In this document: piece after piece, positions 7,878 through 23,525 of the stretch
Position numbering within the stretch: the stretch's first letter is position 1
Layout: each line of letters starts with the position of its first letter
Assembly (NCBI GenBank): GCA_014763895.1
Contig: JACXUM010000011.1
Span: forward strand, 1-54,327
Source of the DNA: Campylobacterales bacterium
GTDB lineage: Bacteria; Campylobacterota; Campylobacteria; Campylobacterales; Sulfurovaceae
DNA: 54,327 nt
Direction of reading: 5' to 3'
Translations under genes and position numbers: made by a program
Notes under the pieces: generated by a model
The model's input: the letters and a program-made list of their open reading frames with translations, nothing else
Told to the model about the DNA's origin: nothing
The model's database searches: none

Positions 7878-8777
7878 ATGTTTGATGAAAGTGTTGAAAC
7901 AAAAGCCGGGTTTGTTGCAGTGATCGGTAGACCTAATGCAGGTAAAAGTACGTTATTGAACCATGTGGTAGGTGAAAAGCTTGCAATGGTCTCCAAAAAA
8001 GCGCAAGCAACCCGAAAGCGCATGAATATTATTGTGATGCATGAAAATGCACAGATCATATTTGTCGACACTCCGGGTATTCATCAAAAAGAGAAACTGC
8101 TTAACCAGTTTATGATGGATGAGGTTTTCAAAGCCATTGGAGATTGTGATCTTATCTTATTCTTGGCACCTATTACGGATAAATTGACAGAGTATGAAAA
8201 ATTTTTAAATCTTGTCGAGTCAAAAGGGGTAAAACATATTGTCGTGCTGACAAAGATTGATCATGCAAAACAGGGTGATATTCTTAAAAAGCTAGGGGAG
8301 TATCAGAAGTACCAGGATCGATTTGAAGCTGTTATTCCTTTTTCGGTAAACAAAAAAGTAGGAAAAAAACAACTGCTAGATGAAATCACCAAACATTTGC
8401 CATATTCACCTTATTTATACGATCCGGAATTATTAACTACTCAAAACATCCGTGATATCTATAAAGAGCTGATACGGGAATCCATCTATGAAAATCTCAG
8501 CGACGAGATACCCTATGAGAGTGATGTGATCGTAGACCGAATAGAAGAAAGTGATGAAATGGATAGGGTCTTTGCAACGATCATTGTTGAAAAAGAGACG
8601 CAAAAGGGTATGATCGTCGGTCAGAAGGGTGCTGGTATCAAGCGTGTGGGTAAGTTTGCAAGAGAACAATTAGAACTCTTTTCCGGCAAAAAGATTTTTT
8701 TGGACCTTCATGTTGCCGTTAAGAAGGGATGGAGTAAAAATAAAGAAGGTTTGGAAGAATTCGGATATATAATCTAG
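7878..8777 (+). CDS. era: GTPase Era
   Basis: A 299-residue GTPase that assists 16S rRNA maturation and 30S assembly. G1 GRPNAGKS is at about residues 17-24, G3 DTPG near 64-67 and G4 TKID near 129-132. The C-terminal KH domain has MIVGQKGAGIKRVG near residue 247. Length is normal for Era. The ATG at 7878 follows AAGGAAAT. It follows hslU by about 110 bp containing a hairpin, so it may have partial independence from the protease operon. A long AT-rich stretch separates it from the pilus-like cluster downstream. Confidence 0.96.
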   Translation: MFDESVETKAGFVAVIGRPNAGKSTLLNHVVGEKLAMVSKKAQATRKRMNIIVMHENAQIIFVDTPGIHQKEKLLNQFMMDEVFKAIGDCDLILFLAPITDKLTEYEKFLNLVESKGVKHIVVLTKIDHAKQGDILKKLGEYQKYQDRFEAVIPFSVNKKVGKKQLLDEITKHLPYSPYLYDPELLTTQNIRDIYKELIRESIYENLSDEIPYESDVIVDRIEESDEMDRVFATIIVEKETQKGMIVGQKGAGIKRVGKFAREQLELFSGKKIFLDLHVAVKKGWSKNKEGLEEFGYII

Positions 8778-8872
8778 TATTATTAAAATAAATCAAAAAA
8801 AATTAAAAATTAAAAAATTATTTTTTACCAAAACTTTTAATTTTTGTAAGATACTTTTAATATTATAACATA

Positions 8873-8878
8873 TATAAT
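8873..8878 (+). promoter_or_regulatory. -10 element for the mshI-N operon
   Basis: A perfect TATAAT lies in an extremely AT-rich leader (8780-8880), 25 bp before the first gene of the cluster. A strong ribosome-binding site (GAAGGAAGG) follows. No clear -35 box is seen. Confidence 0.5.
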
Positions 8879-8903
8879 TGGTTAAGACAGAAGGAAGGTA
8901 AGG

Positions 8904-10436
8904 ATGTTTTTAAAGAAAAGTTCATCTCCATCGGATATTTCGAATATTGTTACAGTGAATGCTTATAACGGTAAGAGTTATATTTACAAAAATGATAAGT
9001 TCCAGCAATTAACTAAACTTAGCTACAATGCTTCTAATTTTATTACCTCATATATCAGTAATAAAGATATTATTACAACTACAGTCAACTTAAGCCGGGG
9101 TATCCCACAAGAAGATATAGCAGATATACTTGATATTAAAGCGTATGAGGAATTGGGGCTTGATCAGGCAAGTCGATATGTGATCAGTTCGATTGAGATT
9201 GAGAATGCAGGGGAAGAGCGGGAATTCCATATTTTTGTTGCAGAACCAAAATCACTGGAACATCTTTATTTGCCCATCAAAGAAGAGACTAAATATATTG
9301 ACTTGGTTATTCCTGCCCCTCTCCTTTATAAAACACTTTATAAAAGAGAGATTTTACAGCCAAACGGTACGCATTGTTTTATCTATTTTACAAAGAGTGA
9401 TGCCTTTGTAGCATTATATAGGAACGGGCAGTATCTCTATTCTAAATCAATAGATTTTTCTTTAGAGCAGATTTATGATAAGTATTGTGAAATCATTGGT
9501 GAAAAAATTGATGAAAAAGTCTTTATTTCACTTTTAGAGTCCGAAGGTTTAAAAACTGTTAACCCTGAATATCAAAAAAATCTTATGAAGATATTCGGGG
9601 AAGTCTTTATTCATATTAATGATATTATCATTTATGCAAAAAGGGCATTTCAGCTTGATACGATCGATCAGATGTATATTGGAACTGAAAATGGTCCTAT
9701 CATAGGCTTAGATGAATATAGCCAGAATTATTTAGGTTTGCAATCGTTTGAATTGAATTTTAATTATTCTATTAATAATGATGAATGGTATATTGATCAA
9801 TTGCAGTATTTAATGCTGTTAAATTCTTTTGATTATATGGAAGATGAAGAATCTGTTGTCAATCTTACATTATATCACCGTCCGCCTCCATTTATTCAAA
9901 GAGCAAGCGGTCAATTTATTATTTCCACAGCTGCAGCGATTTCAATCGGTTTGGCATACCCACTTGTGTATTTGATCGGTTCATATGTCAATGATGCAAG
10001 AATTTATGCTATGAACATTGAGAATCAAAAATTGAGTGCAGAAGTTACCAAATATAAACAGATACTTGGGGAGAAGAAAAAAGAGATTGACCAATTGGAT
10101 AACAAAATTACAATGTTGTCTGATAAATATCATGCCAAGACACAGACATTAACTTCTATTTATGACAAAAAAGTGAATTATCGTTTGAAGTCAGGGATAT
10201 TCCATACAGTTGCAGAGGAATTAAACCGATTTGGTGTGCATATAGATAATATTCAGACCAAAGAGAATACGGTATGGCTCTCTTTGGTTAGTTCAGATGA
10301 TAGAAAATTGACTGAGCTGATCAAGTATGTATCAGACAACCATTTCAATGAGATCAATCAAATTGATATTGAGCTGATTGAAAAAGATTCTCAAAGTGAA
10401 TACTATAGAGGGTTGTTGAAGGTGGATTTAAGATGA
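8904..10436 (+). CDS. mshI: PilM/PilN-type fusion, MshI-like pilus assembly protein
   Basis: This 510-residue protein appears to combine two parts. Residues 1-335 resemble a degenerate actin-like PilM/MshI domain on the cytoplasmic side. A membrane helix at about 339-362 (ISTAAAISIGLAYPLVYLIG) is followed by a coiled coil (370-410) and a PilN-like periplasmic domain. In type IV pilus and MSHA systems these proteins link the motor to the secretin through the inner membrane. It is the first gene of the cluster, preceded by a strong promoter-like region and GAAGGAAGG. Its end overlaps the next gene by four bases. The identification rests on architecture and gene order; sequence similarity to characterised MshI is not obvious by eye. 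The symbol is given by position and fold. Confidence 0.65.
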   Translation: MFLKKSSSPSDISNIVTVNAYNGKSYIYKNDKFQQLTKLSYNASNFITSYISNKDIITTTVNLSRGIPQEDIADILDIKAYEELGLDQASRYVISSIEIENAGEEREFHIFVAEPKSLEHLYLPIKEETKYIDLVIPAPLLYKTLYKREILQPNGTHCFIYFTKSDAFVALYRNGQYLYSKSIDFSLEQIYDKYCEIIGEKIDEKVFISLLESEGLKTVNPEYQKNLMKIFGEVFIHINDIIIYAKRAFQLDTIDQMYIGTENGPIIGLDEYSQNYLGLQSFELNFNYSINNDEWYIDQLQYLMLLNSFDYMEDEESVVNLTLYHRPPPFIQRASGQFIISTAAAISIGLAYPLVYLIGSYVNDARIYAMNIENQKLSAEVTKYKQILGEKKKEIDQLDNKITMLSDKYHAKTQTLTSIYDKKVNYRLKSGIFHTVAEELNRFGVHIDNIQTKENTVWLSLVSSDDRKLTELIKYVSDNHFNEINQIDIELIEKDSQSEYYRGLLKVDLR

Positions 10437-11086
10437 AGTACATAGAAGATAAATTAGAGGCTTTGGATGAATATTTCGCTCCCAAAAAAGAGAGCGAGAA
10501 GTGGATGATTATTCTTGGAATTGCAGCTGTCATCAGTTATTTGGCATATGCTTATTTACTTCCTTTTACAGAGAAAATGTATCAAAGGAGTGAAGCCAGT
10601 AAACAAAGCCTGCAGAAAGAAATAATAGACAATACAACATATTTGAATTCTATTACTGTGAATGGTGATCGTGATTATTACGTCAAAAAATTTGATAATG
10701 ATATTGTTCTCAAGAAACAAGAGATTGTAAACCTAAATCATAAGATCAAATTTATTAATTCAAATTTAGACAAGTTGTCCGATATGCTCTTTAATCAGAA
10801 GAGTTGGTCAAGATTTCTTGATTCTATTACGAATAAAGCAGAAGTCCAAAATGTGGGTATCCAATATATTAAAAATGATTATGTGGATACAAACGGTAGT
10901 TTTGGTTATGTTTTGGAAGTAGGAATAGGGTGTGATGGAGATTATAAAGGAATTGTAAAATTCATGAATGAATTGGAACAAAATATTCTGGTAACGGATA
11001 TTTATGGCTCCAATGTTTATATGGATACGAATACATCCAAAGTACATGCAGATATCAATATTTCAGTATGGGGGATTAATCACTAA
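10433..11086 (+). CDS. mshJ: PilO/MshJ-like inner-membrane assembly protein
   Basis: A 217-residue bitopic protein with a short cytoplasmic N-terminus, one membrane helix at about residues 25-43 (MIILGIAAVISYLAYAYLL), a coiled coil at 50-110, and a C-terminal ferredoxin-like PilO-type domain (about 130-215). PilO and MshJ pair with PilN/MshI in the inner-membrane alignment complex. The ATG at 10433 overlaps the end of the previous gene (ATGA), indicating translational coupling. It overlaps the next gene by one base. Assignment comes from topology and position between the fusion protein and the secretin. Confidence 0.65.
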   Translation: MKYIEDKLEALDEYFAPKKESEKWMIILGIAAVISYLAYAYLLPFTEKMYQRSEASKQSLQKEIIDNTTYLNSITVNGDRDYYVKKFDNDIVLKKQEIVNLNHKIKFINSNLDKLSDMLFNQKSWSRFLDSITNKAEVQNVGIQYIKNDYVDTNGSFGYVLEVGIGCDGDYKGIVKFMNELEQNILVTDIYGSNVYMDTNTSKVHADINISVWGINH

Positions 11087-11493
11087 TGAAGAAAGTTGTC
11101 TTAATTGTTCCAGTATTACTGGCATCTGTATATGCTGATCTTTCTGTTAAACAAATTCAAGAAATGGTTATGAAAATTCATGAAAAGAGAGAAGGTGTGA
11201 AGCTTGAAACACTGGAAATGACCAAAGAACCATTTGTTAAACTGAGTAACGAAAATAATGTGACTACATTTATTGTACCTGAAAAAATAGATGATGCAAA
11301 ATTATCTTTACATGCAATTATGAATGGCAAGGCATATATTAATGATTCGTGGATGAATGTCAATGATACCATTATGGGATATACATTGAAATATGTAGGT
11401 AAAAACGGTGTGGTATTGAGAAATGACGTTCAGATAAAAAAATTATTTTTGCATAAAACAGAAAATAATTTCATCAAGATAGAAGGAAGGTAA
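11086..11493 (+). CDS. mshK: PilP/MshK/CtsR-like periplasmic protein
   Basis: A 135-residue exported protein with a signal peptide (MKKVVLIVPVLLASVYA) and cleavage expected near residue 17. The C-terminal half has the pattern YINDSWMNVNDTI followed by a short beta domain (LKYVGKNGVVLRND) like the homology region of PilP/GspC proteins, which contact the secretin. No lipobox cysteine is present, unlike typical PilP. It overlaps mshJ by one base and the secretin gene follows directly. In Campylobacter the small ctsR gene occupies this place before ctsD; equivalence is inferred from order only. Confidence 0.6.
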   Translation: MKKVVLIVPVLLASVYADLSVKQIQEMVMKIHEKREGVKLETLEMTKEPFVKLSNENNVTTFIVPEKIDDAKLSLHAIMNGKAYINDSWMNVNDTIMGYTLKYVGKNGVVLRNDVQIKKLFLHKTENNFIKIEGR

Positions 11494-11497
11494 AGTG

Positions 11498-13087
11498 ATG
11501 AAACGTGTACAAAAAATCAGACAGAAGTTTTTTGCTTCATTGGTTTTGTTTTTTGCGATATTTAATATTGCGAATGCAAATGAGTGTTCAACAAAACTCT
11601 TCAGTGTAACTGTTGACAGTAAATTAAGTATTGGAGATGTCATAGAGAACTTAGCCGATACGTGTGGATTGACTGTTATTGTAAAGGATGATGCTGCAAA
11701 AATGAGAATGAACAAAAAGCTGTATTATGTCAAGTTGAAAAATAGTACACTAGCTGGCTTTTTGAACACGATACTCAAAGATAACGATCTTCACTATATT
11801 TTGAGCGGCAACAAGTTGGAGATCTCATATTTGATTACTCGTACATTCCGTATTCATTATATTGCTGGACAAAGAACAGGCAAAAGTAATGCGAATGTAA
11901 CGATTGCAAATCCTAATAATGCTTCGGGTAGTATGATGAGTGGCGGAGCAGGAGGTGGAACTGCAGATGCAGCTTCAAGAACAGGTATTTCAATTGAAAG
12001 TAATGATGAATTTGCATTCTGGCAGACTGTAGAAAAAGAGGTTCAGCGTATCTTGGTCAGTGCCGGAGATAATAGCACGCATTATACCAAAAGCGGGGAT
12101 GGATGGACAGGACCTGACGGGCAGGTTTGGGAATATAACCCACTAGCCCCTATTATTAACCCAGAGGCAGGTATGGTTACAGTTACCGGAACGGATCAAC
12201 AGATCAATCGGGTAGCACAATATATCCGTACACTGACACAACAATTAAAATCTCAGGTATTGATTGATGTCCGTATTTTGACCGTAACCTTTGATGACAG
12301 TAAAACAAGCGGTGTGGATTGGTCACAATTATATTCTTTACAGAATATGACAATCAATACATTGGCAATGGCACAAAGAAATGTAAGTTCATATACGTGG
12401 GATACGACGGACGGTATTACAGAGGCTGAGTTTGCACCGGATACGAGACCAAGAAGCGGACAAATTATCAATCTGACGGGCAAAAACGATGTCTCTGAAG
12501 TAATTAAGTTTTTAGGAACACAGGGTGATGTAAAATCAATTTCAAGTCCAAGAGTAATGACGCTCAACAATCAACCAGCATTGATCAGTGTTGGTAAAGA
12601 GCTTTTCTATAAGATAAAATCTGCAACAACGGCAGCAAGCGGTGGGGGTGCTACTTCAGCAGAAGGAGAGTTGATTGATTCGGTATTTGCAGGTATTTTG
12701 CTTGATATAACACCTGAAATTGATGGAAACGGTATGATCACACTTAAGATCAACCCTTCAATCTCCGACACTGTTGAAGCAGTTCAAAGTACAACAGGGG
12801 TAAGAACAATCCCGCCAGATTTGATCAGAAGACAAATTGCATCTGTGATAAAAGTTAAAGACGGTGAGCATGCAATTTTAGGTGGTTTGATCAATTCTAA
12901 ATCTGGTGTTCAAGTGAGTAAAGTACCACTGCTTGGAGATATACCGTTGCTGGAATATGCATTTAAAAGTGAAAAACAGATCAATACTGTAGAAGAGTTA
13001 GTACTTATCATCACTCCCCATGTTGTGAAAAATGCTAAATCTGCCACTTTGAAAGATTTAGGATATTCAAAAGTTAATGAAAAGTAG
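11498..13087 (+). CDS. mshL: secretin, MshL/CtsD type
   Basis: An outer-membrane secretin of about 529 residues. It has a signal peptide (about 1-28), an N-terminal secretin/TonB short domain (about 40-110), a Gly-rich loop (150-165), an N-domain with GMVTVTGTDQQINRVAQYI near 235, and the C-terminal secretin domain with ISSPRVMTLNNQPALISVG and the VPLLGDIPLLEYAFKS motif followed by ELVLIITPHVV. It forms the multimeric channel through which a pilus or DNA passes. A GTG at 11495 is three bases upstream in frame; the ATG at 11498 is preferred because AAGGAAGG at 11483-11490 is then spaced 7 bases. The end overlaps the next gene by 11 bases. No lipoprotein cysteine is visible in the signal peptide. 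Confidence 0.9.
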   Translation: MKRVQKIRQKFFASLVLFFAIFNIANANECSTKLFSVTVDSKLSIGDVIENLADTCGLTVIVKDDAAKMRMNKKLYYVKLKNSTLAGFLNTILKDNDLHYILSGNKLEISYLITRTFRIHYIAGQRTGKSNANVTIANPNNASGSMMSGGAGGGTADAASRTGISIESNDEFAFWQTVEKEVQRILVSAGDNSTHYTKSGDGWTGPDGQVWEYNPLAPIINPEAGMVTVTGTDQQINRVAQYIRTLTQQLKSQVLIDVRILTVTFDDSKTSGVDWSQLYSLQNMTINTLAMAQRNVSSYTWDTTDGITEAEFAPDTRPRSGQIINLTGKNDVSEVIKFLGTQGDVKSISSPRVMTLNNQPALISVGKELFYKIKSATTAASGGGATSAEGELIDSVFAGILLDITPEIDGNGMITLKINPSISDTVEAVQSTTGVRTIPPDLIRRQIASVIKVKDGEHAILGGLINSKSGVQVSKVPLLGDIPLLEYAFKSEKQINTVEELVLIITPHVVKNAKSATLKDLGYSKVNEK

Positions 13088-13889
13088 ATATGAAGCTGCT
13101 AAAAATGTATTCATCGATTCAATCGAGATCGATGATTACATAGAACTTGATTCCTCAGTTACTGCTTATAAACAGTTGCAACACAGTATTGAAAAACCAT
13201 TAAAAATGATATTGCTTTTTGGTAAGCCAGGGACGGGTAAAAGTATTCTTTTAAATCGGATTTCTGAAAAACTGAAGCATCAAAAGGAGATCTATTATTT
13301 TGATACTCCTTCTGTTACAGAAAAAGAATTTTTCTATAAATTATTCAAAGTATTGACTAAACAGGATATGCCTCGCAATACTGAAGTAAATTTTTCTGCA
13401 TTGGTTAATTTTTGTAAAAATTTAAGAGGAAAACGTGAAATTATCATTCTTCTAGATGAAGCACAAATGTATGGCCCTCAAATGATGGAACGTATCAGGT
13501 TGTTATCGGATAGCAGAAGTGTGAAATTTGTTGTCTCTTTGCATAAAACGGAAGATGAAGACTTGATAGCAAAAGAGCATTTTCAATCACGTATTTGGGA
13601 AGTAATAGAGCTTAAAAATGCTGCTCAGGCGGATCTTGCATCATATATCCATAAAAAGCTTCTTAAAAAGAACCTTTTTGAGATAGCCAACAGTATTAAA
13701 GAAAAAGATATGAAAATGATTCATAAATTTACCAAAGGCAATTATAGAGAATGCAATAAACTTTTGTTTACAATCTTTGAAATCTGTGAATATTATGATG
13801 AGAATGAACCTACAAAGATCAATTATACTCATTTGCCTCAAAGAATCATTGAAATGGCAGCTCTCAAATTAGGATACATTCATGTATGA
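13077..13889 (+). CDS. mshM: AAA ATPase, MshM/ExeA/CtsP type
   Basis: A 270-residue ATPase of the ExeA/GspA/MshM group. Walker A GKPGTGKS is at about residues 49-56, and Walker B IIILLDEAQMYG near 121-132 is followed by sensor residues in VKFVVSLHKTE. The protein lacks the membrane helix and peptidoglycan-binding tail of full-length ExeA, as MshM does. In Campylobacter the nucleotide-binding protein CtsP sits at the same place after the secretin CtsD. It overlaps the secretin gene by 11 bases and the next gene by 8, so translation is coupled. Confidence 0.85.
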   Translation: MKSRYEAAKNVFIDSIEIDDYIELDSSVTAYKQLQHSIEKPLKMILLFGKPGTGKSILLNRISEKLKHQKEIYYFDTPSVTEKEFFYKLFKVLTKQDMPRNTEVNFSALVNFCKNLRGKREIIILLDEAQMYGPQMMERIRLLSDSRSVKFVVSLHKTEDEDLIAKEHFQSRIWEVIELKNAAQADLASYIHKKLLKKNLFEIANSIKEKDMKMIHKFTKGNYRECNKLLFTIFEICEYYDENEPTKINYTHLPQRIIEMAALKLGYIHV

Positions 13890-14646
13890 TATCAAACCTT
13901 TGGAAGAACAATGGAAACGATATAAACGCAAACAGCGTAAACCATGGTATCTCTTTTCTTTTACGGTTGTTATGTTGATAGCAGCTTCAACTATATTTTA
14001 TTTTAACAAAACTTTTTTATTGGAAAAATTTTTGCAAAATGATCTGAATGAAAGTAAAAAAATTGAAAAAGTTATTACAAGAAAATCAGATGAAACGCTT
14101 GTTCCTTCCTCGATTTTTTTTGATAAAGCAATAACCCAACTGCAAACAGTTCCCAAAAATATTCCAACAGATGATAAAACAATAGTGAATCGTGAAGTAT
14201 CACAACCTGTAGGACCTTATGAAAGTGCACAGGATGTATCGGTATTGGAAGAATCAATAGATTCTGATAAAAGCTATGGCACTCAGCCTGTGAAAGTGAA
14301 GGATAGGCCAAAGATTCATTTAGAAATTGTTGAGACGTCAAGTGTCAGTGCATATAAAGACGTTGAAAATCGGTTTTATCAATCCCATGATATTGATGAT
14401 TCGCTTTTTTTGGCAAAAAGCTATTATCGTCAAGGGAAATATCAACAAGCTGAATTTTGGGCATTACAGACAAATAAGGTAAATCCAGCTATAGATGAGT
14501 CTTGGTTAATTTTTGTAAAAGCAAAATATAAATTAGGTCGTAAAAGTGAAGCCACGAATGTTTTGAAGACCTATATCAATAAATCAAATTCAAAGGAAGG
14601 AAAAAAACTTTTAGAAAAGTTTAATAATGACGGGTTTATAGATTAA
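13882..14646 (+). CDS. mshN: TPR protein with one membrane helix, MshN/CtsX-like
   Basis: A 254-residue bitopic protein. A basic N-terminus (KRYKRKQRKPW) precedes a membrane helix at about residues 23-43. A long low-complexity linker (45-160) leads to a C-terminal tetratricopeptide region (about 168-250, containing AKSYYRQGKYQQAEFWALQ and an A-K-Y-K-L-G-R repeat). MshN proteins have this layout and follow mshM. In Campylobacter the membrane protein CtsX stands at this place and works with CtsP. It overlaps mshM by 8 bases and is followed by a 74-bp gap with its own promoter-like element before the motor ATPase gene. Confidence 0.65.
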   Translation: MYDIKPLEEQWKRYKRKQRKPWYLFSFTVVMLIAASTIFYFNKTFLLEKFLQNDLNESKKIEKVITRKSDETLVPSSIFFDKAITQLQTVPKNIPTDDKTIVNREVSQPVGPYESAQDVSVLEESIDSDKSYGTQPVKVKDRPKIHLEIVETSSVSAYKDVENRFYQSHDIDDSLFLAKSYYRQGKYQQAEFWALQTNKVNPAIDESWLIFVKAKYKLGRKSEATNVLKTYINKSNSKEGKKLLEKFNNDGFID

Positions 14647-14674
14647 AAAAATCAGTTTTAGCAGTTCAATATGT

Positions 14675-14680
14675 TATACT
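14675..14680 (+). promoter_or_regulatory. -10 element before mshE
   Basis: TATACT with an upstream TGT lies 41 bp before the mshE start, in the only real gap of the cluster (74 bp). A strong GAGGGGGG ribosome-binding site follows. This suggests separate or boosted expression of the motor and platform genes. Confidence 0.4.
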
Positions 14681-14720
14681 GCCTAAAGGTATAAGAGATT
14701 AGACAAAAAGAGGGGGGATT

Positions 14721-16457
14721 ATGGTCAATATCATCGAAATGATGTTAGCAGAAAATGTGGTCACAAAAGATGCAATTTCACAATTGGTAAGGATGCGTCC
14801 CCCCAGAAAAATATCTATCGCCAATCTTATTAATGAAAGAATGGTTGATTTGCGCAGTGTGCAGATTTTCCTTGTCAAAAAGATACGGCAGGGTGCCATT
14901 ACACTTGCTCATCTTGAATCGATAGACGGCATTGATTTGATTCCAATTATTGAGGAAGTTGCACAGGTTTTGCATGTTGAATTTGTTGATCTTGATGCTA
15001 CTGAGATTGATATGCAGCTTTTTTCCAAAATTCCATATAAACAACTGCTCAGATATCATGCTATTCCGATAGAAGAAAACGATTTGAATGTGTTGGTGGT
15101 ATTTGATGATCCCTTAGACATGGCAGCACAAGATGCGATACAAAGAATTTTCCCAAAAAAACCGATCAGAATAGGGATAGCCAAACCCCATGATATCCAA
15201 AAACATTTGCAGCGCCTTGAGATCAATGAAAGCATCAAAGGATTGGTTTCAGATATACGCAGGGATTTAAGCCAGGAAGGGATAAATGAGGAGAAGGATG
15301 AATCTCCTGCTGTTTTAAAACTTATTGATATTATTTTAAAATCTGCTATTTATATTACAGCGAGTGATATCCATATTGAAGCTACGGAAAAAAACTGTAT
15401 CGTGAGAGAACGTGTGGATGGTTTGTTGCGACAAAGCTTTACGTTTGATAAAGATATTTTCCATCCTCTTGCTTCCCGTATGAAATTACTTTCTAATTTG
15501 GATATTGCAGAAAAGAGAAAGCCGCAGGATGGTAGATTTTCTGCATCTATAAATAAAAGAGATTTTGACTTCAGGGTTTCAACATTGCCTACGATTTATG
15601 GTGAGTCGATCGTTTTAAGGATTTTGGATAAATCCAAAGCAATGATCAGACTTGAAGATGCAGGAATGAGCAAATTTTGTTATGACCGTTTTGCGCAGGC
15701 GATTAAAGTCCCTTACGGTATCATTCTGGTAACGGGGCCTACAGGTTCAGGTAAAACGACTACACTTTATGGCGCACTAAATGCCATTAAAGACATAAAA
15801 GACAAAATTATTACCGTAGAAGATCCGGTAGAATATCAAATGACCGGTTTGCAGCAGGTACAAGTGCATCCCCAGGTAGGGCTTACGTTTTCGACAGCAC
15901 TAAGATCCATATTAAGACAGGACCCTGATAAGATCATGATCGGTGAGATCCGGGATCAGGAAACACTGCGTATCGCAATACAGGCTGCTTTGACAGGACA
16001 CCTTGTACTTTCTACACTGCATACCAATGATGCCATATCGGCGGTTACGCGTATTATCGATATGGGAATTGAAAGTTATTTGGTGAGTGGTGCTCTTATT
16101 GCTATTCAGGCTCAAAGGTTGGTAAGAAAGATTTGTCCTCATTGTAAGCATGAAACTACACTTCCTTCAAAGCTGTTGGAAGATATCAAAGAATATTTGC
16201 CGGAGAATCCTGTATTTTATAAAGGTGAAGGATGCAAGGAATGTGGACATAGCGGTTATGCGGGAAGGGAAATGATATCCGAAGTTTTAACCATCAGTGA
16301 AAAGTTTGCAAGGATGATTGCTGCAAATGCTTCTAAGGAAGAAATGACCAATCAAGCTATGGAAGAAGGATTCGTTACGATGTTTGAAGATGGAATCCGC
16401 AAAGCATTGGATGGTAAAACGACAATAGATGAAATCTACAGGGTAGCGAGGTTATAA
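14721..16457 (+). CDS. mshE: assembly ATPase, MshE/PilB/CtsE (GspE) type
   Basis: A 578-residue secretion motor ATPase. An N-terminal MshEN-type domain (about 1-150) precedes the GspE core. Walker A GPTGSGKTT is at about 339-347, the Asp box SDIHIEA lies near 214, Walker B IMIGEIRD is near 408, and the His box contains LSTLHTNDA. A tetracysteine zinc site is formed by CPHC at about 472-475 and CKEC at 505-508. The protein powers extension of a pilus or pseudopilus from the cytoplasmic face. It overlaps the platform protein gene by one base. No retraction ATPase (PilT) is found in the window. Confidence 0.93.
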   Translation: MVNIIEMMLAENVVTKDAISQLVRMRPPRKISIANLINERMVDLRSVQIFLVKKIRQGAITLAHLESIDGIDLIPIIEEVAQVLHVEFVDLDATEIDMQLFSKIPYKQLLRYHAIPIEENDLNVLVVFDDPLDMAAQDAIQRIFPKKPIRIGIAKPHDIQKHLQRLEINESIKGLVSDIRRDLSQEGINEEKDESPAVLKLIDIILKSAIYITASDIHIEATEKNCIVRERVDGLLRQSFTFDKDIFHPLASRMKLLSNLDIAEKRKPQDGRFSASINKRDFDFRVSTLPTIYGESIVLRILDKSKAMIRLEDAGMSKFCYDRFAQAIKVPYGIILVTGPTGSGKTTTLYGALNAIKDIKDKIITVEDPVEYQMTGLQQVQVHPQVGLTFSTALRSILRQDPDKIMIGEIRDQETLRIAIQAALTGHLVLSTLHTNDAISAVTRIIDMGIESYLVSGALIAIQAQRLVRKICPHCKHETTLPSKLLEDIKEYLPENPVFYKGEGCKECGHSGYAGREMISEVLTISEKFARMIAANASKEEMTNQAMEEGFVTMFEDGIRKALDGKTTIDEIYRVARL

Positions 16458-17707
16458 TGAAATATTTTATTATCACAATTATAGAAAAAGGTAGAAAACG
16501 CAAAGAGCAGGTAAAAGCCAATGATAAAATGTCTGCCATAAAAGTTGCCAAACAAAAGTTTCCAAATACTATAGTGATGAAAGCTGAAGAGACTGCACCT
16601 CCTTTGGAAGAAACAATGGGGAGTATTTTTAAAGGTTTAAAAAAAGCATTGAAAGGGAAGATCCCCGTCAATGACAAGATTTCTACTATCCGTCAGATTG
16701 CGGTAATGACAAATGCAGGTATCGCAATCACGGATACATTAGAAGATGTTGCCAGCAATACGCAGAACAAACAGTTAAAAGACATTTATACGAATATTTA
16801 TAACGATATTAATGCCGGTAACAGTATAGCAACGGCAATGGAACCCTATCGTGATGAATTTGGACATGTTGCATTGGCTATGACAAAACTTGGAGAAAGA
16901 ACGGGTAACCTTTCCGAGTCATATCATAAGTTGGCAGATATCTTGGAGAATATCAGAAATAATACGGCTAAATTTAAAAAAGCCATTAGGACACCTTTGA
17001 TTACCCTGGCGGCAATGGCAATTGCATTTACGATTTTGATTATCGTCGTTGTCCCTAAATTTAAAGAGATATTTGCCAGATTTAAGACCGAACTCCCATT
17101 GCCAACCCAGATTCTTTTGTTTCTTGAAAATGCTTTTACACATTACGGCATATATATTTTGTTCGGTTTGATAGGAATTATTGTTACGATAAAATATATG
17201 TATAGCAATAATGTTAATTTTAGGTATCAGATGGACAAGTTAATGATTCATCCACGTTTTTATCTGATTAATAAAGCGATATTCCTTTCGACAATGCACA
17301 AGTACAATTTGGTATTCAGCGAACTTGTCAAGGCAGGTATCCCTGTATCTGAAGCTTTGACTACGGCAGTAGGAATGGTAGATAACCTGGCCATTAAAGA
17401 AAAATTGCTCAGTGTTAATTCGAATATCAGTAAAGGGATGAACCTTGCGGAAGCTTTTGAATTGACGGGTCTTTATGAGAATATGCTTTTGCAGATGATA
17501 AGGGCAGGTGAGTCCGGAGGTCAGCTTGATACAATGCTTGGCAAGGTAACAGAGTACTATGATATGCAATTCCAGGATTTGATCGATAACCTTGCAGCAT
17601 ATATAGAACCGATCATGTTGTTCTTCCTGGCCGGTTTAGTTTTGTTAATGGCGTTGGGAATCTTTATGCCAATGTGGGATCTTGGAAAAGCTGTTAAAAA
17701 CGGTTAA
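16457..17707 (+). CDS. mshG: inner-membrane platform protein, MshG/PilC/CtsF (GspF) type
   Basis: A 416-residue polytopic platform protein with two GspF repeats. The first cytoplasmic repeat (about 75-175, with IRQIAVMTNAGIAITDTLED) is followed by membrane helices near 178-200 and 220-245. The second repeat (about 280-380, with ELVKAGIPVSEALTTAVG) is followed by a third helix near 385-410. GspF/PilC proteins anchor the assembly ATPase and the growing fibre. The gene closes the cluster: a hairpin follows and the next gene, kdsB, is convergent. The minor-pilin genes that follow mshG in Vibrio are absent. Confidence 0.93.
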   Translation: MKYFIITIIEKGRKRKEQVKANDKMSAIKVAKQKFPNTIVMKAEETAPPLEETMGSIFKGLKKALKGKIPVNDKISTIRQIAVMTNAGIAITDTLEDVASNTQNKQLKDIYTNIYNDINAGNSIATAMEPYRDEFGHVALAMTKLGERTGNLSESYHKLADILENIRNNTAKFKKAIRTPLITLAAMAIAFTILIIVVVPKFKEIFARFKTELPLPTQILLFLENAFTHYGIYILFGLIGIIVTIKYMYSNNVNFRYQMDKLMIHPRFYLINKAIFLSTMHKYNLVFSELVKAGIPVSEALTTAVGMVDNLAIKEKLLSVNSNISKGMNLAEAFELTGLYENMLLQMIRAGESGGQLDTMLGKVTEYYDMQFQDLIDNLAAYIEPIMLFFLAGLVLLMALGIFMPMWDLGKAVKNG

Positions 17708-17713
17708 TAATAG

Positions 17714-17731
17714 ACCAGAGTTTTCTCTGGT
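17714..17731 (+). terminator. hairpin after mshG
   Basis: ACCAGAG and CTCTGGT form a seven-base-pair stem with a TTTT loop, seven bases after the mshG stop. No T-run follows on either strand, so it may be an mRNA end stabiliser instead of an intrinsic terminator. Confidence 0.4.
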
Positions 17732-20075: not shown

Positions 20076-21598
<1,523 letters not shown>

Positions 21599-21782
21599 AA
21601 GCAATCTCCTTGAAGTTTCTCATTGTAAGTGTAGCAGGTATCAAAAAATATGGAAAGTAGGAAATGGCGTGAATTTAATCACTTTAAACATCAAAAGGTA
21701 TAAACCGGAAGTAAATTTGATTAAAAATTAATCAATGTAGGATTTTAGGGTTATGAACAAGGTAAATCCTTGTTCATATGGA

Positions 21783-22139
<357 letters not shown>

Positions 22140-22211
22140 TTATTTGTTATTGTGTTCATAAAGTTGCTTGACCAATACAGCAAATGCTGTATTGGCATAG
22201 ACAATGCATGA

Positions 22212-23525
22212 TTATGCATTCATTGCTTTTTCACCGTGGATACTCTCATCCAGACCGATCTCTTCAGTTTCTGCATCAACACGTGCACCGCCTGTCAATG
22301 CCGAAGCGATGAAGTAAACGATCACAGTACCTACCAATGTGTACAGACCTACTACGATAACTGATTCAAACTGTACGAAAAGCTGACCCATTCTGTCACC
22401 GCTCTCTTTAAGCGGACCATCCCATAGAAGATTTTTATCATCAAGAGCAAGAAGACCTGTTGCAATAGCACCCCATAGACCTGCCAAGAAGTGGATACCG
22501 AATGCATCAAGACTGTCATCATACTTAAACATTTTTTTCAATGATACAACACCGAAGAATCCGATCAGTGCACCAACGATACCTACAATGAATGCTCCAC
22601 CAACACTAACAAAACCAGCAGCCGGTGTGATGGCAACAAGACCTGCAACGATACCGGATGCAATACCAAGCAATGTCGGTTTTTTGAAGATCATCCATTC
22701 AAGCAACATCCAAACCACACCAGCAGCAGCTGTTGCAACAGTAGTAGTCAATATTGCCAAACCAGCGATAGCATTTGCACCGAATGCAGAACCACCGTTA
22801 AATCCATACCATCCAAACCAAAGCAATGCTGCACCTGCAGCAGTCAATAGGATACTGTATGGTTTCATCGCAGTTTTTGGGTAACCAGCACGTTTACCTA
22901 CCAATATAGCCAATACAAGTCCAGCCAAACCACCGTTCATATGTACAACAGTACCGCCGGCGAAGTCAAGAGCGCCCGCATCAAAAAGCAATGCACCGGC
23001 ACCACCCCAAACCATGTGCGCAACAGGAGCATAAACGATTAGACCCCATAGTATAACAACGACCAACCAAGTAGAGAACTTCATACGTTCAATCACTGAG
23101 CCAGCTGCAATTGCTACAGTAATCGCAGCAAATGTTCCCTGGAATGCAACAAACACATATTGTGGATACGTTCCAAATCCATCAAGATCTGTCCATTTGA
23201 TACCGTCAAGCATCAGATTTCCAAATCCACCCATTACATTTTGAAGCATTGCACTTTCATTTGTACCAAATGCGATTGAAAATCCTGCAATGATCCACAC
23301 AACCATCGCCACTACGAATGCACCCATAACCATCGCAAAAGTATTGAGTGTGTTTTTACTTCTTGTCATACCGCTGTAAAATAGTGCCAAACCAGCCGGT
23401 GTCATGAGAAGTACAAGCGCTGTAGAGATCATCATCCATGCTGTGTTCCCAGAGTCCAGCTTACCGTCTGCAAAAGCAGCGATAGGCATGAGCGTTGCCA
23501 AAAGAGCTAAAAGTTTTAACTTCAT
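22212..23525 (-). CDS. amtB: ammonium transporter, copy 2 (with signal peptide)
   Basis: A 437-residue ammonium channel. A cleavable signal peptide (about residues 1-19, ending AAFA) precedes the eleven-helix core. This branch matches the E. coli AmtB arrangement. The pore histidines lie in GGTVVHMNGGLAGL and FGIHFLAGLWGAIATG. The C-terminal tail ends ETEEIGLDESIHGEKAMNA and would bind PII. Sequence is clearly distinct from copy 1, so the two transporters belong to different subfamilies. AAAGGA precedes the ATG, and an unusual hairpin-forming region lies about 60-100 bases upstream. Confidence 0.96.
   Translation of the reverse strand: MKLKLLALLATLMPIAAFADGKLDSGNTAWMMISTALVLLMTPAGLALFYSGMTRSKNTLNTFAMVMGAFVVAMVVWIIAGFSIAFGTNESAMLQNVMGGFGNLMLDGIKWTDLDGFGTYPQYVFVAFQGTFAAITVAIAAGSVIERMKFSTWLVVVILWGLIVYAPVAHMVWGGAGALLFDAGALDFAGGTVVHMNGGLAGLVLAILVGKRAGYPKTAMKPYSILLTAAGAALLWFGWYGFNGGSAFGANAIAGLAILTTTVATAAAGVVWMLLEWMIFKKPTLLGIASGIVAGLVAITPAAGFVSVGGAFIVGIVGALIGFFGVVSLKKMFKYDDSLDAFGIHFLAGLWGAIATGLLALDDKNLLWDGPLKESGDRMGQLFVQFESVIVVGLYTLVGTVIVYFIASALTGGARVDAETEEIGLDESIHGEKAMNA

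Follow-up and report, generated by a model that had tools for sequence, protein, structure and literature searches.

In the genome of a Sulfurovum-like bacterium of the Campylobacterales, eight coupled genes encode an assembly apparatus of the type IV pilus kind, with no pilin gene beside them. Which fibre does this machine build, from which subunits, and for what purpose? Our answer, to which we give a probability of roughly three in four, is that the locus is the secretory operon of a retractile pilus of the MSHA class, whose genes are split over three loci and which serves both surface contact and DNA uptake. The locus lies in a stretch of 54,327 nucleotides (the window) which is the entire contig C7 of a single assembly (1.77 Mb in 47 contigs, 99.8% complete).

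The assembly locus

A sequence-only reading of this DNA had proposed eight coupled genes at 8904-17707, and all eight open reading frames are confirmed there on the plus strand (Table 1). Neighbouring genes overlap or are separated by at most one base, the sole exception being a gap of 74 bases upstream of the ATPase gene. Downstream of gene 8 the run is closed by a terminator-like stem and the convergent gene kdsB. Sigma-70-like sites occur at about the frequency found in shuffled sequence. Further along the window, at 20076-23525, two near-identical GlnK-type proteins of 113 aa are encoded, each beside a different ammonium transporter gene.

Table 1. Features of the assembly locus, with positions in the window
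Feature	Position	Strand	Product	Basis
Gene 1, mshI position	8904..10436	+	510 aa, membrane-anchored assembly protein	ORF
Gene 2, mshJ position	10433..11086	+	217 aa, PilO-like inner-membrane protein	weak PilO match
Gene 3, mshK / ctsR counterpart	11086..11493	+	135 aa, PilP-like periplasmic protein	homologues, hhalign
Gene 4, MshL / CtsD secretin	11495..13087	+	530 aa	TIGR02519, MshL clade
Gene 5, MshM / CtsP AAA ATPase	13077..13889	+	270 aa	AAA_22, profile grouping
Gene 6, mshN / ctsX position	13882..14646	+	254 aa	one membrane helix + TPR
Gene 7, MshE / CtsE assembly ATPase	14721..16457	+	578 aa	MshEN + T2SSE, MshE clade
Gene 8, MshG / CtsF platform protein	16457..17707	+	416 aa	T2SSF, MshG clade
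Terminator-like stem, between gene 8 and convergent kdsB	17714..17731			stem seen in sequence

The same reading saw in these genes the order mshI-J-K-L-M-N-E-G. K, L, M, E and G can be upheld by sequence, whereas genes 1, 2 and 6 carry their names only by position. Gene 1 has no Pfam family above cut-off, its 12 homologues in relatives hold the equivalent place in the locus, and hhalign against the Legionella and Aeromonas I proteins was not significant; nor did hhalign tie any of genes 1, 2 and 6 to the I, J and N proteins of these two genera. Gene 2 matches PilO at 14.5 bits, under the Pfam cut-off, and gene 6 has a TPR-like Pfam match and homologues that include the jejuni-like CtsX. Among the 21 homologues of gene 3 are a Legionella adelaidensis protein and the jejuni-like ctsR product, and hhalign gave 98.8% against the Legionella K protein. 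The gene 4 product scores 252.5 bits against the NCBIfam model of the MshL-type secretin, TIGR02519 (cut-off 250.2); a lipobox was looked for in it and is absent. Gene 5, adjoining the secretin gene, encodes an AAA_22 (Pfam) protein whose profile groups with MshM of Aeromonas and Legionella and with the jejuni-like CtsP. The Pfam domains of gene 7 are MshEN and T2SSE and that of gene 8 is T2SSF.

The c-di-GMP-binding MshEN motif is a V. cholerae trait and no requirement for the MSH family. In its relaxed form (PMC5013675) it is not recognisable in gene 7, against one match in each of the two MSHA references. The locus contains no gspC, mshF was not found in the run, and there is no prepilin peptidase gene, the only one in the genome being on contig C1.

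Placement in the MSHA family

In a maximum-likelihood tree of secretins, the Campylobacterota proteins and MshL of Aeromonas and Legionella form one clade (support 100/99), with GspD and PilQ/HofQ separate. When PilT served as outgroup, long branches caused a first ATPase tree to separate MSHA from Campylobacterota. In the maximum-likelihood tree built without PilT and with PilB/EpsE, the Campylobacterota ATPases group with MshE at 97/95, rising to 99/95 once the long branches are removed (with one of the two jejuni-like genomes omitted). The platform proteins form a clade with MshG, here a single reference, at 97/95. The two jejuni-like genomes nest within the Campylobacterota clade. The eight genes are the assembly (secretory) half of an MSHA-class type IV pilus, and the proposal that Cts and MSHA are one family, made on gene order in the earlier reading, is supported: all three trees join the window proteins and the jejuni-like Cts proteins to MshL, MshE and MshG, and none places them with T2SS or with PilQ/PilB.

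The match to ctsR-D-P-X-E-F, also proposed then, holds for K-L-M-N-E-G, with the correction that ctsR is the counterpart of K and not of I. In one jejuni-like genome, the locus adjoins a nifJ-like gene and its K, M, N and E proteins are 103, 202, 195 and 519 aa long. These lengths are close to those published for C. jejuni CtsR, CtsP, CtsX and CtsE (105, 202, 195 and 519 aa; PMC8308473), which equates ctsR-D-P-X-E-F with K-L-M-N-E-G. From gene lengths and neighbours we infer that the jejuni-like genomes are of C. jejuni type.

MSH systems in Epsilonproteobacteria, in which mshA stands alone and the locus lacks the peptidase, were reported by Denise et al. in 2019, so that family membership alone is not new; the systems tied to transformation in that work are ComM, Tad and T4aP, and MSH is not named (PMC6668835). 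A search of the open-access literature, a scope outside which the original Cts papers fall, found no paper treating both MshL and CtsD. What is new here is the satellite pilin loci and the reading of Cts as a reduced MSHA through nested loss.

In V. cholerae, the MSHA genes are divided between mshI-F, the secretory operon, and mshB-Q, the structural one (PMC4624765). The two operons are adjacent there; in the window genome they are separated and the presumed shaft pilins form a third piece, giving three loci. With the MSH family the genome shares the secretory gene order, the MshL, MshE and MshG clades, an MshQ-family protein, a locus without peptidase, a stand-alone MshA gene and a PilT encoded elsewhere. 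It differs from the V. cholerae system in having no recognisable c-di-GMP motif, no lipobox and no mshF found in the run, and in the linkage of its pilin array to priA and comEC.

Pilins encoded elsewhere in the genome

The sequence-only reading had argued that the pilins must be elsewhere, and so it proved: the lack of a pilin is a matter of location. Nine N_methyl matches are found genome-wide, together with the prepilin peptidase, one ComEC, a ComEA-like protein of 94 aa and three PilT-family ATPases. Secretins and assembly ATPases are limited to two of each. The second machine, on contig C45, is a T2SS with gspC, D, E and F and the pseudopilins G, H, I, J and K; since it has its own pseudopilins, two pilin sets, on contigs C47 and C1, are left as orphans. 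These would be the substrates of the window machine. Beside the T2SS pseudopilin genes there is also an exosortase-like membrane protein of 158 aa (L010:15727-16203).

The first orphan set consists of three pilins at C47:607-2241, immediately upstream of priA, in the order pilins, priA, ispG, dnaB, comEC (comEC at 8236-9507). Another pilin start adjoins uvrB at the end of contig C20. The two contigs, C20 and C47, may therefore meet within a pilin array, although their ends have no exact overlap. Against 21 reference pilins, the profile of the priA-linked pilins scores best with Aeromonas MshA (66 bits, with MshB at 48 and GspG at 38). An MshA-type pilin is thus present in the genome, outside the secretory locus. 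In C. jejuni, Cj0683 lies upstream of priA, has a pilin-like N-terminus, interacts with CtsE and is needed for efficient DNA uptake (PMC10046745); by gene order, the array holds the place of this competence pilin. The dnaB gene of the contig (L011:5780-8233) encodes a protein of 817 aa, compared with 476 aa in the relative L129, with an intein-like insert in the P-loop region.

The second set, at C1:20466-26949 between a bamD-like gene and hpf, comprises a protein of 1256 aa, D-O-P minor-pilin-like genes and a FimT-like pilin; the same genes occupy the bamD site in other families. The names D, O and P rest on order and size, and pilin profiles against single MSHA pilins were not discriminating and did not single out MshD, MshO or MshP. 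A C-terminal piece of the 1256-aa protein matches DUF6701 at 39.3 bits (cut-off 27), the domain that Aeromonas MshQ carries at 333 bits. Pfam did not detect DUF6701 in the full-length protein or in four full-length Q proteins, only one of 12 Q C-terminal pieces has a match, and the alignment of 12 Q proteins, compared by hhalign with the single Aeromonas MshQ, gave no significant hit. For the MshQ-like C-terminus, AlphaFold yielded a model of too low quality to interpret (pLDDT 36.9). Nearly all the MshQ-like proteins in L139-L168 close with a tryptophan and a conserved NRR-like stretch before it, an end that may act in docking or sorting. The Aeromonas caviae record L076 (NZ_AP026896.1), labelled a plasmid, is 4.94 Mb long with MSHA, T2SS and PilQ loci, and so is probably chromosomal; the mshQ reading frame in it is apparently interrupted.

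At the equivalent site a jejuni-like genome has bamD-fliW-proC-ctsT (98 aa), followed by genes for 242 and 144 aa; proC is cj1076 and ctsT cj1077 (PMC8308473). Judged by its neighbours, the set of mshQ-D-O-P and FimT-like genes sits where C. jejuni has ctsT.

Conservation and nested loss

Among named genomes, most of the closest relatives belong to Sulfurovum, with secretin identity of up to 83%. All eight genes are present in 55 of 80 named Sulfurovum-type loci. A motif scan found a pilin ORF near none of these 80, several of which are on short contigs, although the motif does not catch every pilin (control loci gave 4, 3 and 2, fewer than they hold); pilin absence is therefore a property of the locus and not peculiar to the source genome. 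One Sulfurovum-type mshL (L198) is on a contig binned as Heimdallarchaeota, most likely a misbinned contig.

Across Campylobacterota, an MshL match (E <= 1e-10) is found in 272 of 298 genomes, 220 of them above the family cut-off; in family f6 the matches are weak, at about 1e-36, and could come from secretins of another kind. In the 20 loci fetched, the order gene 1-2-K-L-M-N-E-G, mostly adjoining hslV-hslU-era, is found in families f3 (genus g15 excepted), f7, f8 and f10, and in f11 without M and N calls. Between the N (TPR) and E (ATPase) genes, most relatives outside Sulfurovum have an extra ORF of 178-187 aa which the window does not (L060, L063, L064, L065, L071-L073 and L075, with a signal peptide in L060).

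An alignment-based search gave an MshQ-like C-terminus in 135 of the 298 genomes and PilT in 179, and every MshQ carrier (135/135) has PilT; the Fisher p of about 3e-46 ignores kinship and is descriptive only. In the jejuni-like genus g15, neither MshQ nor PilT is found in any of 38 genomes, while MshL is kept in 37. A pilin match is absent in 23 genomes, and the 20 of these that are listed all belong to genus g19, which we take to be Helicobacter proper, and are also without MshL. Helicobacter uses the ComB system. The natural reading of this nested loss is that a full MSHA pilus was reduced to the Cts uptake machine.

The C. jejuni Cts system (ctsRDPXEF, ctsT, ctsG and Cj0683) shares with the window genome the K-L-M-N-E-G order, the pilin before priA and the minor pilins at bamD-fliW. 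The window genome has MshQ, PilT and, at the locus, genes 1 and 2, none of which is found in the jejuni-like genomes, and CtsT is only about 100 aa long. We consider it somewhat better than an even chance that the ancestor of Campylobacterota had one retractile MSHA-class pilus for attachment and DNA uptake, encoded at hslUV-era, uvrB-priA-comEC and bamD-fliW, and that the C. jejuni-type Cts is a reduced descendant, with uptake retained and PilT, MshQ and genes 1-2 gone.

Proposed function of the pilus

In the proposed mechanism, prepilins would first be cut by the shared prepilin peptidase on contig C1 and then polymerised by MshE (gene 7) on the MshG platform (gene 8), with the alignment proteins (genes 1-3) guiding the fibre towards the MshL secretin. 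As shaft subunits, the MshA-like pilins of the uvrB-priA interval are most likely; MshD-O-P and the FimT-like pilin, together with the large MshQ-family protein from the bamD site, would form the tip complex. The PilT proteins would retract this fibre, which most likely serves surface contact and would also deliver DNA into the periplasm, to ComEA and ComEC. PilT retraction and the MshQ-family protein suggest a dynamic surface pilus. Two features suggest DNA uptake: both pilin loci sit at competence positions, and the genome has no other pilus machine to serve ComEC. Dual use in attachment and DNA uptake is thus the most likely arrangement. In Campylobacter ureolyticus, which is said to move by type IV pili and has no flagella (PMC3758288), MshL, MshM and PilT are present.

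A purely adhesive pilus for contact with, for example, sulfur grains or biofilm, with DNA taken up otherwise or not at all, is the strongest competitor, though we regard it as unlikely. The MshQ-family protein and the three PilT proteins would suit it; the MSHA pilus of V. cholerae is retractile and serves attachment (PMC7096442), and in Sulfurovum indicum, of a genus without flagella, MshL is up-regulated on elemental sulfur (PMC10045233). It leaves aside, however, the MshA-like pilins in the priA-comEC neighbourhood and the minor pilins in the place of ctsT, and, the T2SS apart, no other machine is left to serve ComEC. A pure competence pseudopilus like that of C. jejuni, with no surface fibre, is improbable. 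It would agree with the ctsRDPXEF order, the similar satellite pilin loci and the non-transformable ctsD, ctsE, ctsR and ctsF null mutants of C. jejuni (PMC10893306), but the window genome retains genes 1 and 2, MshQ and PilT, which are absent from the locus or the whole genome in jejuni-like bacteria. Type II protein secretion, to which the best NCBIfam model of the ATPase points (GspE, under its cut-off), is rejected as barely credible: secretin, ATPase and platform protein lie outside the GspD, GspE and GspF clades in the three trees, the locus has no gspC, and the genome's separate T2SS, with homologous core parts, belongs to another clade and has GspC and its own full pseudopilin set.

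Placing Cts within the MSHA family, and the orphan pilins in syntenic MSHA-like loci, gives each Cts protein a named counterpart and predicts its pilins. It also makes testable the question of whether MSH pili import DNA, and whether they do so without PilT. If Cts does descend from an ancestral dual-use pilus, MSH would be a further class of filament performing natural transformation, and in C. jejuni it would do so without a dedicated retraction motor.
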